Assembly: GCA_023301795.1 (NCBI GenBank)
Contig: JALZVU010000310.1
Location: 1 to 39,089, forward strand
DNA from: Granulosicoccus sp.
Lineage (GTDB): Bacteria; Pseudomonadota; Gammaproteobacteria; Granulosicoccales; Granulosicoccaceae
DNA length: 39,089 nt
Direction: 5' to 3'
Below are positions 3,434 through 8,403 of the stretch, piece by piece (the stretch's first letter is position 1; the number at the start of each line of letters is the position of its first letter). The notes under the pieces were generated by a model. That model ran no database searches and had not been told where the DNA came from. It was given only the letters and a program-made list of their open reading frames with translations. A program made the position numbers and the translations under genes.

Positions 3434-3999
3434 CGCCCCAACAGCCCAGCCGCCAATCGTGTCCCCTGATCAATAGCTCGCTGGGCATCCAGCTCTGCTG
3501 CTACATTTACACCACCGATAAGATGCGCCGGTACAACCAGTTGTTGCAATCGCTCTTGTAGCTCACGAAGCGGATCCTTTCCTGCGCAAATAATGTCATG
3601 ATCAACGGCAAGCACACGCTCTTCACCCTCTACGGCGATGTACAGGTCTTCATCATCGATCCACCGGTACTCAGAGCCTTTGATCATATTCACGCCGCGC
3701 ATTGTCAGTAAGCGCCAATGATAGCGACACACGAGCCCACATTAGCTCGTCTACGCAACACGTCAACGTAGGACAACACCTTCGAATGTTCTATTCCTTC
3801 TTTAGGCGGCGTGCGAGGTTACACACCTGTGACCAGTACCACCTCATCACACGCTTTGAGTTGTTCAACATTACCAATCCGGTGGTTGAGCTTTAACACT
3901 GCACGCCCGTCAGCTCAATTTGCTTCTGAAAATATCGCAACGTCTCATTAAACTCTTCTTTTCCAAGCGCCTGCGTGGCCATTGAACTGACCACCAATT
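3434..3999 (-). pseudogene. Decayed fragment of a fadH-type 2,4-dienoyl-CoA reductase gene
   Basis: This stretch is a diverged copy, about 85% identical by eye, of the last 800 bases of the intact fadH-type gene at 6379-8403, in the same orientation. It starts at the equivalent of the fadH stop codon, where TAG has become TTG. It ends inside the gene at the equivalent of about 7174, so the N-terminal 410 residues are absent. A 235-base deletion between two GCGCC copies (equivalents of 6652 and 6887, joined at 3712-3716) removes about residues 505-583 and shifts the frame. Further small indels occur, for example near 3980. A 101-residue frame survives at 3427-3732 but corresponds only to the C-terminal tail of FadH, so no active enzyme can be made. 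Confidence 0.88.
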
Positions 4000-4220
4000 C
4001 CAACACCAGACCAGCGCTGTTGTTATAATTTAGCGGCCCGGTTATGATCTTTGTATCAATAGCGGATGTGTAGCAGGCGTATTGCCAGACGCTGTGGCGG
4101 ACAAATCTGTCAGGCAGGCGTCCACTTGTGGCGCTTTGCCTTAACCGAATACACTACATATACCAGAGAACAGATGATTGAACTCCATATTCATGAATGC
4201 CTTTGGCTGGAGGGATGTTC
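4000..4220. other. Leader region of the glycosyltransferase gene
   Basis: This lies between the end of fadH-like homology and the glycosyltransferase start. A TATAAT hexamer at 4024-4029 could be a -10 box, but no matching -35 is seen 16-18 bases upstream. No gene or repeat is recognised. Confidence 0.3.
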
Positions 4221-5309
4221 ATGAGGCTGTTGATAGTGCCGGACAAAGGACGATCATTTTCCAGTGTCAGGCCGGAGGCCGAAATATATTTGAGTCTGGC
4301 TAGAGCTGGGCATGAACTGACGCTCTGTGTCGATCCTGAAAGCGCTTATTTTAGCCGCTACAAAGTCGCCAATATAGAACTGCTAGAATTGCCTTACGGC
4401 GCAAAACTGGTGTGGAAGAACATACAGAAACTAAAACACCAGATCAAATCCAAGAACATTGAAGTCGTCTACGCCACGACATCGAGAACAATACCAAACG
4501 CTGCAATAGCATGCATTGGGACGTCAGCCAGAATGGTTGCCTACAGAGGCACGACCGGTGGCTTGTACCCTACCGATATCAGCAACTACTTGGGTGTTAT
4601 GAATCCACGTGTCAATGGTGTTATTTGCGTCTCCAAGGCCGTTGAGGAGCACGTAAAAAAGAGCGCAAGAAAGTCAATTCATCCATTTGTATCGGCCATT
4701 CACAAAGGCCACGACAGAACCTGGTATACAGAGCCTGCTGCCGACCTTGCAGAGTTTTCCAGCGATACCACAAAGTTTAATGTCCTATGTATCGGTAGCT
4801 CGCGCCCTTATAAAGGCATGCAGTACTTTATCGATGCACTGCGCTATGTAAAAGATCTACCGAGGCTACAGGTAATATTGGTTGGAACTGGATTCGATAC
4901 ACCCGAATTTCAACAACAACTTCAAGCCACTGGGATGGCAGACAGGATAAGCCTTCCTGGGTTCCGGCAGGACGTCCCACAAATTGCGAAAGCTTGCGAC
5001 ATCATGGTAGCGCCTTCGCTGCGCGAAGGGTTGCCGCGCGCGGTGATGGAGTCACTGGCCAATGGTACGCCTGTCATAAGCGCAGCTAATCCGGGAACGA
5101 TGGAAATCGTGGAAGACAACAAAAATGGCTATATCGTGCCATTGGCAGATGCTATATCGATCGCTGAAAAAATAAAGTTTCTTTATCATTCGCCAGACCA
5201 ATTGCAGCGCATAACAAACAGCGCATCTGACGTGATAGACGGTAGGCTTTCCCATCAGAATACGGTTGATTCATATACTGAATACTTTAGTCGCATAATT
5301 GCGCAATAA
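4221..5309 (+). CDS. Glycosyltransferase family 4 (GT-B) protein
   Basis: The 362-residue protein has a GT-B layout. The N-terminal half carries I-C-V-S-K-A-V-E near its end. The C-terminal half begins with V-L-C-I-G-S-S-R-P-Y-K-G, then contains L-P-G-F-R-Q-D-V and the E-x7-E signature R-E-G-L-P-R-A-V-M-E-S, with glutamates at 269 and 277. This is typical of retaining GT4 enzymes, which transfer a sugar from a nucleotide donor to a lipid-linked or polysaccharide acceptor at the inner membrane face. ATG at 4221 is chosen because GGAGGG (4209-4214) is 6 bases upstream. The ATGs at 4197 and 4215 are too early or too close. It converges on a CDP-glycerol transferase-like gene with a 14-base gap. 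Donor and acceptor are unknown; a surface glycan is likely. Confidence 0.87.
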   Translation: MRLLIVPDKGRSFSSVRPEAEIYLSLARAGHELTLCVDPESAYFSRYKVANIELLELPYGAKLVWKNIQKLKHQIKSKNIEVVYATTSRTIPNAAIACIGTSARMVAYRGTTGGLYPTDISNYLGVMNPRVNGVICVSKAVEEHVKKSARKSIHPFVSAIHKGHDRTWYTEPAADLAEFSSDTTKFNVLCIGSSRPYKGMQYFIDALRYVKDLPRLQVILVGTGFDTPEFQQQLQATGMADRISLPGFRQDVPQIAKACDIMVAPSLREGLPRAVMESLANGTPVISAANPGTMEIVEDNKNGYIVPLADAISIAEKIKFLYHSPDQLQRITNSASDVIDGRLSHQNTVDSYTEYFSRIIAQ

Positions 5310-6364: not shown

Positions 6365-6378
6365 GGGTACAAAGCACC

Positions 6379-8403
6379 CTACAGCACAGCCGCCAAACGT
6401 GTCCCCTGATCAATAGCCCGCTTGGCATCCAGTTCTGCTGCTACGTCTGCACCGCCGATGAGATGCGCTGAGACACCCAGCTGCTGCAATGGCTCTTGTA
6501 ACTCGCGAAGCGGATCTTGCCCAGCACAGATAATCACATGATCAACATCGAGCACACGCTCTTCACCCTCAACGGTGATGTGCAGGCCTTCATCATCGAT
6601 CCGACGATACTCACAGCCCTTGATCATATTCACGCCGCGCATCGTCAGTGAGCGCCGGTGAATCCAGCCGGTAGATTTTCCAAGGTTTTTACCCACTTTA
6701 CTTTGCTTTCTCTGCAAGAGCGTTACCTCGCGCTCAGCCTGATGCTTCGGGTTAAAGTCAGTGACACCACCCTCGCGTTCAAAGCTTGCATCTATACCCC
6801 ATTCCTTCATAAACGTTATGGGATTAACACTGGCGTCATTGCCATCGTGCGACAGATACTCGGCAATATCAAAGCCTATTCCACCCGCGCCAATGATAGC
6901 GACACGCGAGCCCACATTGGCTCGTCCACGCAACACGTCAACGTAGGACAACACCTTCGAATGCTCTATGCCTTCAATAGGCGGCGTGCGAGGTGCAACA
7001 CCAGTGGCCAACACCACCTCATCAAACGCTTTGAGTTCATCAGCATTGCCAATCCGGTGGTTAAGCTTTAATTGCACACCCGTAAGCTCAATCTGCTTTT
7101 GAAAATATCGTAGCGTCTCGTTAAATTCTTCTTTACCAGGCACCTGCTTGGCCATATTGAACTGACCACCAATTTCACTGGCCCCGTCAATCAATGTCAC
7201 TGAATGCCCACGCTTAGCGGCAGTAGTGGCTGCCGCAAGTCCAGCAGGCCCTGCACCCACCACACAGACCGATTTCTTATTAGTGGTTGGCTCGATTAAC
7301 AATTCTGTTTCATGACAGGCACGAGGATTAACCAGACAGCTGGCTGTTTTTTTCTGAAAAACATGATCAAGGCAGGCTTGATTACACGCTATACAGGTAT
7401 TGATTTCATCTGCTCTACCTTCCATGGCTTTGAGCGCAAACTGCGAATCTGCCAGAAAAGGTCTTGCCATTGACACCATATCGGCATCACCACTTGTGAT
7501 AATTTTCTCAGCTACATCAATGGTATTGATTCTGTTGGTGGCCACCAAAGGTACAGATACCTCAGACTTCAACTTTCCGGTTACAGAGGCAAACGCACCG
7601 CGTGGCACCATAGCGGCAATGGTCGGTATACGCGCCTCATGCCAACCAATGCCTGTGGTTATGAGCGTAACACCAGCGGCTTCAACAGCACGGGCTTGCG
7701 CTACCACCGCCTCCCAGTCGCTACCTTGCTCAACCAGCTCCAGCATGGATAAGCGATAGATAACGATGAAATCAGGACCCACTGCCGCACGTACTCGTGA
7801 AACGATTTCCTCGGCAAGGCGCAGTCTTCTGGCAACATCTCCTCCCCACTTGTCGTCACGCGTGTTAACACGACCAGACAAGAACTGGTTGATCAGATAG
7901 CCTTCTGAGCCCATTATTTCAACGCCATCGTAGCCGGCGTCCCGGGCCAACGCTGCACAGCGCGCAAAGGCTTTAATCTGCGCTTCAACGCCCCCACTGC
8001 TTAGCTGTTTAGGCTGAAACCGGGAAATAGGCGATTTTTTATCCGTGGACGACACCACAAACGGGTGGTACCCATACCGACCCGAATGCAATATTTGCAT
8101 GCAGATTTTGCCGCCTTCCTCGTGCACCGCAGAGGTCACTAGCTTGTGCCTGCCAACCTGCCAACGGCTGTTCAACATGCCTGAAAACGGACCCAGCCAA
8201 CCGCGTATGTTTGGTGCTATGCCACCGGTGACCATCAAACCAGCACCACCCGCCGCACGCTCAGCAAAATACGCTGCCAGCTTTGGGTAGTCCTGTCGCC
8301 TATCTTCCAGGCCAGTATGCATGGACCCCATCAATATCCGGTTTGACAGCGTCGTAAAACCAAGATCGAGGGGTTGGAATACTGCAGCGTAATGGTTGCT
8401 CAT
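6379..8403 (-). CDS. fadH: 2,4-dienoyl-CoA reductase-type NADH:flavin oxidoreductase
   Basis: The 674-residue protein has the full FadH layout. An FMN-binding old-yellow-enzyme barrel occupies about 1-330, a 4Fe-4S site C-I-A-C-N-Q-A-C about 337-356, and FAD/NAD(P)H domains the rest, with G-A-G-P-A-G at 383-388 and G-A-G-G-I-G near 507. Tyr169 and His255 align with the E. coli catalytic Tyr166 and His252, and Cys337, 340, 344 and 356 fit the cluster ligands. Such enzymes reduce 2,4-dienoyl-CoA during beta-oxidation of unsaturated fatty acids. Related enzymes act on other enoates, so the exact substrate is not certain. An SDR gene lies 59 bases upstream on the same strand and may be co-transcribed. 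A broken second copy of its 3' third lies at 3434-3999. Confidence 0.9.

Follow-up and report, generated by a model that had tools for sequence, protein, structure and literature searches.

Insertion by an integrase at the 3' end of a gene can restore that gene. For Escherichia coli, one report describes incoming DNA in the form of a non-replicating plasmid that carried the 3' end of lacZ and from which mainly partial duplications were recovered: 56 of 60 Lac- clones gave a polymerase chain reaction product diagnostic for duplication of the lacZ end, and the 14 duplications sequenced spanned 109–950 bp and were attributed to a single crossover of circles missing part of the fragment (PMC3240628). 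That report also cites homology-facilitated illegitimate recombination in Streptococcus pneumoniae, Acinetobacter baylyi and Pseudomonas stutzeri, and another describes tandem duplications of a far larger scale, ~100 to 900 kb (PMC3784515). Here we describe a natural locus of Granulosicoccus sp. in which two glycan-related genes, a GT4-family glycosyltransferase gene (GT4) and a CDP-glycerol glycerophosphotransferase-like gene (CDPg), are bracketed by an intact fadH gene and a decayed, 5'-truncated copy of the fadH 3' end (psi-fadH). The window is the entire contig JALZVU010000310.1 (39,089 bp). It comes from a draft assembly, G000, that totals 5.78 Mb in 313 contigs, with a completeness of 97% and an estimated contamination of 2.95%. 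G000 was compared with 26 genomes of the same genus (G001–G026) and 21 of the same family (G027–G047); its closest named fadH relatives are Granulosicoccus metagenome genomes.

The locus resembles the lacZ case (PMC3240628) in that an insert lies between complete and partial copies of a gene end, the repeat measuring 801 bp here; it differs in that the lacZ insert was a laboratory plasmid under selection, whereas the Granulosicoccus scar is natural and old, one of its copies has decayed, and plasmid genes are missing from the stretch that separates the two. In homology-facilitated illegitimate recombination, too, a single homologous anchor admits unrelated DNA, but the same report predicts a deletion of recipient DNA, whereas here the gene end is duplicated. 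What the locus shares with integrase-mediated insertion is a gene end repeated on either side and an intact reading frame; however, the repeat is ~800 bp long and strongly diverged, and the GT4 and CDPg genes, tail to tail, are the only genes between the copies, as the initial annotation had it. Without an integrase gene in the insert, the locus lacks the mark of elements that integrate site-specifically at the 3' end of a gene. There is also no transposase gene between the copies and no inverted-repeat pair of at least 20 nt at the insert edges; three weak inverted-repeat pairs (21–26 nt, 73–81%) span the insert, joining 0.7–1.8 kb to 8.3–11.9 kb. The scar is a tidy case of an event of a known type, from a genus that has received little study, and not a new system.

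The repeat was first noticed by eye as two fadH regions about 85% identical and pointing the same way, and alignment bears this out: 488 of 564 aligned bases (86.5%) are identical and both copies lie on the minus strand. The initial annotation had placed the fragment at 3434–3999, slightly off from the aligned 3437–4002, and its counterpart at 6379–7174; the match in fact covers 6377–7177, and the intact gene as a whole runs over 6379–8403. The two pieces of psi-fadH match the intact gene with BLAST E values of 1.3e-96 and 3.5e-85, so the repeat is not due to chance. Homology had been said to start at the fadH stop and to end abruptly inside the gene; the abrupt internal end stands, the start is shifted to 2 bases beyond the stop, and an internal loss that had gone unmentioned has removed 235 bp of fadH from psi-fadH, with GCGCC at each edge of the lost stretch. 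The fragment carries frameshifts, four in-frame stops in one piece (2 TGA and 2 TAA) and TTG at the position of the intact gene's TAG stop, and exact identity between the copies runs for at most 36 bp (3753–3788). No further homology was detected in the left flank of the repeat, whose score was equalled or bettered by 160 of 200 shuffles. The similarity between the adjoining part of fadH and the spacer that separates psi-fadH from the GT4/CDPg pair is borderline (2 of 200 shuffles reach the score); against 3000 random segments and under three scoring schemes, the fractions reaching the spacer's score were 0.025, 0.036 and 0.105 with the fadH of G000 itself, 0.011, 0.072 and 0.028 with that of G006, and 0.14, 0.12 and 0.37 with that of G005, so that the presence of some more decayed fadH inside the spacer is itself a borderline call.

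Phylogenetic placement and codon-position patterns indicate that psi-fadH is an in-lineage copy that was probably dead at birth or soon after. In a DNA tree of 559 shared columns, psi-fadH and the fadH of G000 are sisters (99/97) inside a clade with G005 and G006 (100/99), and a topology forcing the fadH of G000 together with G005 and G006 to the exclusion of psi-fadH is rejected (approximately unbiased test, p-AU 0.026). At sites where G005 and G006 agree, and changes can be polarized, the changes private to psi-fadH number 11/166, 16/183 and 9/106 at codon positions 1, 2 and 3, and those private to the intact gene 0, 0 and 12; positions 1 and 2 differ from position 3 in the intact gene (p = 1.5e-8) and show no such bias in psi-fadH (p = 0.84), which argues that psi-fadH has been unconstrained and that the intact gene is under selection. 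Consistently, divergence between the fadH genes of G000 and G006 by codon position is 0.088, 0.025 and 0.485. Under a two-phase model, the estimated share of the psi-fadH branch that was neutral is 0.91–0.92, with a lower 95% limit of 0.35–0.42 across three assumed levels of constraint, an interval that leaves up to ~0.65 of the branch under constraint. The initial annotation had suggested a foreign segment with its own fadH end, to be recognized by synonymous divergence like that between species. This expectation fails, as 25 of 96 third positions of fourfold-degenerate codons differ between psi-fadH and the intact gene (0.26, under a slightly different definition from that used for the gene comparisons below), versus a fourfold divergence of 0.57–0.60 between the fadH of G000 and those of G006 and G005. 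Since psi-fadH groups with the gene of its own genome and its private changes are even over codon positions, the fragment appears to be home-made and not a foreign fadH end; the foreign part of the suggestion holds for the glycan genes.

Several lines of evidence mark the pair as laterally mobile and its presence in G000 as a lateral arrival: its neighbors differ in every genome that carries it, its fourfold divergence is low, and the CDPg tree conflicts with the pyrG tree (the gene names pyrG, eno, MTAP and SelO-like are assigned from the sequences). CDPg occurs at 82% amino acid identity or more in 4 of 48 genomes of the order, G000 included, and the pair is shared with G034, which belongs to another genus, over 4166–6371 at 78% DNA identity. 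The G006 cassette is flanked by a convergent pair of housekeeping genes that we take to be SelO-like and MTAP-like, and the same two genes in G000 have 92 bp between their stops and no insert. G005 carries CDPg but no close GT4 (best 36%), and its CDPg lies within a polysaccharide locus that holds a GT2 gene, a diverged GT4 and a pyruvyl-transferase gene; in G034, the pair sits on a 4.5-kb contig with a CotH-domain gene at one side. Between G000 and G006, fourfold divergence is 0.389 for GT4 and 0.331 for CDPg, versus 0.565–0.795 for 18 other genes (pair against the lowest of the 18, p = 7e-5); between G000 and G034 it is 0.521 and 0.388, versus 0.717 for pyrG, the sole other gene compared. 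In these comparisons open reading frames were taken from stop to stop, with own_46 based on 97 codons, and the 18-gene range leaves out fadH, both cassette genes, own_16, own_72 and own_74 (antisense, pseudogene or spurious), own_44 (a 50% paralogue), and own_4, own_51 and own_66 (lacking a G006 partner).

The pyrG tree unites G005 and G006 (100/99) with G000 as their sister (100/100), and an eno tree that lacks G005 and G017 places G000 and G006 as pyrG does, with less than full support (93/82). In the CDPg tree, G005 instead joins G034 (98/98 with DNA, 78/78 with protein), and a grouping of G005 with G006 is rejected (p-AU 0.013 with DNA, 0.028 with protein; the protein tree leaves out row G320, an out-of-frame sequence with two stops, and p-AU is 0.015 with it). 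A grouping of G000, G005 and G006 together against G034 is not rejected (p-AU 0.184 with protein, 0.068 with DNA; 0.36 with the G320 row), and the CDPg tree therefore does not fix the direction or the number of transfers. Of 369 genomes sampled from the class, 23 contain a CDPg relative, the best outside G000 at 51%, with G005, G006 and G034 not among the matches listed; searches with CDPg retrieved one distant relative (27.7%) from a plasmid collection and two unannotated records (~41%) from a phage collection. The cassette locus of G006 has neither direct nor inverted repeats of at least 24 nt. The convergent gaps that hold the pair are fadH/MutS-like in G000 and SelO-like/MTAP-like in G006. 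A doubtful, broader notion is that the pair is a minimal travelling unit without mobility genes that moves between genera and settles in convergent-operon gaps by hitching on host-gene fragments, psi-fadH being one surviving receipt.

By profile, CDPg is a predicted member of the glycerophosphotransferase group of TarL, TagF and Cps3D. Its Pfam match to PF04464 scores 30.6 bits against a curated cut-off of 22.1, over residues 190–255 only, and a profile built from eight relatives of CDPg matches TarL (8va1, 5.4e-12) and Cps3D (8qoy, 3e-11), as well as UDP-GlcNAc 2-epimerases; the protein alone has a single weak PDB match (E = 0.46). It is unlike TagF, TarL and Cps3D in its length of only 346 aa, its Gram-negative setting and this additional kinship to the epimerases. 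Distant CDPg relatives have as neighbors a GT2 gene and a heptosyltransferase-family gene (G001) or an O-antigen-ligase-family gene (G046), and, judging from these gene associations, the pair probably decorates lipopolysaccharide core, O-antigen or another surface glycan with a sugar and a polyol-phosphate-like group.

We hypothesize, at about an even chance, that the locus arose by single-crossover insertion-duplication. Circular or re-circularized DNA carrying a fadH 3' end and the cassette, from a donor strain of the same species whose fadH was nearly identical, would have undergone one crossover with the chromosome, yielding a complete fadH, the insert and a 5'-truncated 3' copy (last 801 bp), with the surface-glycan pair directly behind the native fadH and the second fadH end left on the far side. 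The truncated copy, being functionless, would then have decayed neutrally and lost 235 bp between the two GCGCC motifs. This route is favored because one step yields the layout, the exact position of the insert and a copy that was initially alike; the locus indeed has a complete copy on one side, a truncated copy on the other in the same orientation, and the insert between. Two sister copies, one of them decaying mostly neutrally since they parted, would fit an event at which they were alike, within the wide interval of the neutral share. The donor strain would already have had the pair behind fadH, which implies an earlier insertion.

A number of observations weigh against insertion-duplication. 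No related strain was found with the donor form (fadH end and cassette without the fragment) or with a pre-insertion step; a simple circle would need an unmatched joint at the 163-bp spacer, which this route leaves unexplained; and layout alone cannot separate a single crossover from a tandem duplicate overwritten in its 5' part. The order in age of copy and cassette is only suggested: a divergence of 0.26 between the fadH copies, against 0.33–0.39 for the cassette, suggests that psi-fadH arose after the cassettes of G000 and G006 had split, a difference that is not significant (p = 0.08 with the two genes taken together, and 0.30 and 0.05 with CDPg and GT4 taken singly). No neighbor of fadH is common to G000, G005 and G006, so rearrangement is frequent here anyway. 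Furthermore, 27 of the 76 differences between the copies cannot be polarized, 22 of these at third positions, and the estimated neutral share falls to 0.73–0.76 when a clock is imposed, with the same wide interval, which allows a spell under constraint.

The same end layout would result if a full tandem fadH duplicate came first and the pair was later inserted in the second copy, replacing its 5' 1.2 kb while the 3' rest decayed, the second alternative of the initial annotation. We regard this as possible but less than probable: the neutral-share interval (0.35–1) allows a functional spell of the second copy and the borderline likeness of spacer and fadH would fit, yet two events plus a deletion are required, the point estimate corresponds to decay from near the start, and no tandem fadH was found among the matches listed in the 27 genus genomes or by DNA in the 48 genomes (best six candidates each). 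Alternatively, the cassette may already have stood behind fadH when a replicative template switch copied the last 801 bp beyond GT4. Such a switch needs no donor molecule and would fit a copy younger than the arrival of the cassette, which the fourfold figures no more than suggest; no specific signature of it was found, however, and the far joint is without clear shared sequence upstream of the repeat, so we think it unlikely.

Two further explanations fare worse. Integration of a foreign segment with its own diverged fadH end, so that the 76 differences over 562 compared sites were between-species divergence, is suggested by the foreign nature of the cassette itself; it is very unlikely given that psi-fadH is sister to the native gene, that its private changes fall over all codon positions, unlike those of the selected gene, and that the placement of fadH in G000 matches the pyrG tree. 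An assembly artefact that fused the fadH regions of two strains in one contig is barely credible: the fragmented draft, its estimated contamination and the 36-bp exact match between the copies would permit one, but psi-fadH groups as sister to the intact gene and bears a deletion as well as stops and frameshifts, the repeat ends do not fall on the exact match, and neither 3300–7300 nor fadH DNA has a match elsewhere in the assembly.

The scar may record the entry of borrowed DNA and illustrates, in a natural setting, how genomes take up short gene sets that lack mobility genes, with a history that is readable from codon-position patterns. It also carries a caution, namely that the percent identity of a gene to a fragment close by is a poor guide to foreign origin until the changes have been polarized, and it documents a small glycan cassette common to genera of a marine family.

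The initial annotation had proposed that the locus could be a hot spot for surface-polymer genes and had looked to relatives with a single fadH for the absence of the glycan genes. Orthologues of fadH (at least 77% amino acid identity) occur in 17 of the 27 genus genomes, G000 included, the copy in G013 being broken by a contig end, and a second fadH fragment was found in G000 only, both among the matches listed in these genomes and by DNA among the best six candidates of each of the 48. Downstream sequence (~2.5 to 14 kb) was at hand for 15 of the 16 other genus orthologues, and the absence was confirmed: GT4 or CDPg homologues lie behind fadH in 0 of 15 genomes. Twenty nearby downstream proteins from 13 of the 15 were scanned with Pfam; none fell in a glycan family and 3 fell in no family, and the downstream genes of the remaining two, G020 and G025, are common with the scanned neighbors. 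Within the stretches compared, then, nothing marks fadH as a hot spot for genes of surface polymers.

Table. Features of the fadH locus and aligned blocks of the repeat (window coordinates)
Feature	Position	Strand	Remarks
MutS-domain-V ATPase gene	1660..3306	+	548 aa; stand-alone; far side of fragment; convergent with fadH
psi-fadH, decayed 5'-truncated copy of fadH 3' end	3437..4002	-	566 bp; 235 bp lost internally; TTG for stop
Spacer	4003..4165		163 bp; between psi-fadH and glycan pair
Two-gene glycan cassette	4184..6369		extent common with G006, 82% DNA identity
GT4-family glycosyltransferase	4197..5309	+	370 aa; PF00534
CDPg, CDP-glycerol glycerophosphotransferase-like	5324..6364	-	346 aa; PF04464
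fadH part repeated in psi-fadH	6377..7177	-	from alignment
Intact fadH, FadH/OYE-type flavin oxidoreductase	6379..8403	-	674 aa
SDR-family gene	8463..9167	-	upstream of fadH; SDR-fadH order also in G017
Aligned block 1	3437-3711/6377-6651	-	233/275 identical
Aligned block 2	3712-3895/6887-7070	-	164/184 identical
Aligned block 3	3898-3980/7071-7153	-	70/83 identical
Aligned block 4	3981-4002/7156-7177	-	21/22 identical

The fadH product is a FadH/OYE-type FMN/FAD oxidoreductase (Table); the NCBIfam matches shown are all below their cut-offs. Because CDPg starts 14 bp from the fadH stop on the same strand, it is probably read from the SDR-fadH transcript. Transfer of fadH itself was considered, as suggested by 80% DNA identity to G005 and G006 versus ~70% for some housekeeping pieces, and dropped: its fourfold divergence between G000 and G006 (0.57) is at the low end of, but within, the 18-gene range, and the fadH tree agrees with pyrG (G000 with G005 and G006, 100/100). 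The spacer holds a weak sigma-70-like match at 4020–4048, one of 2 matches in the scanned 3250–4260 where 1.3 are expected. The MutS-domain-V ATPase gene has no close match in the other 26 genus genomes (best 31%, ATPase part only). Between it and psi-fadH, at 3362–3385, a perfect 9-bp stem with a 6-base loop is possibly an old shared terminator; it is not among the results of a terminator scan, and no T run follows 3' of the stem.

Tandem arrays 5' of surface-glycan genes can make expression phase-variable. The direct repeats of the G005 polysaccharide locus (L157) are limited to such an 8-bp tandem array, of the 8-mer CTGCAAAA, at 5513–5617 between the divergent starts of CDPg and the neighboring gene. 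By gene lengths and order, a block of GT2, CDPg and a third gene in the same locus (3394–6387) appears to be absent from G006 (L161) between the same diverged GT4 and the next gene, a further presence-absence difference of these genes.

From ~14200 to 28000 the window is collinear with contigs of G006 (C141), G005 (C108) and G017 (C433) at 64–84% DNA identity, mostly 70–75%. Left of ~14200 no collinear counterpart was found, with 8400 onward compared, 1660–8403 compared gene by gene and 1–1600 not searched genome-wide, and this part of the window looks accessory. It includes a helicase-like gene at 10249–12318 with weak PIF1/SF1 matches and 80% DNA identity to a contig of G005 (C130); among the matches listed, none is in G006 or G017. 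Its fourfold divergence from G005, 0.484, is low for G000 and G005, and the gene has therefore perhaps also been laterally exchanged.

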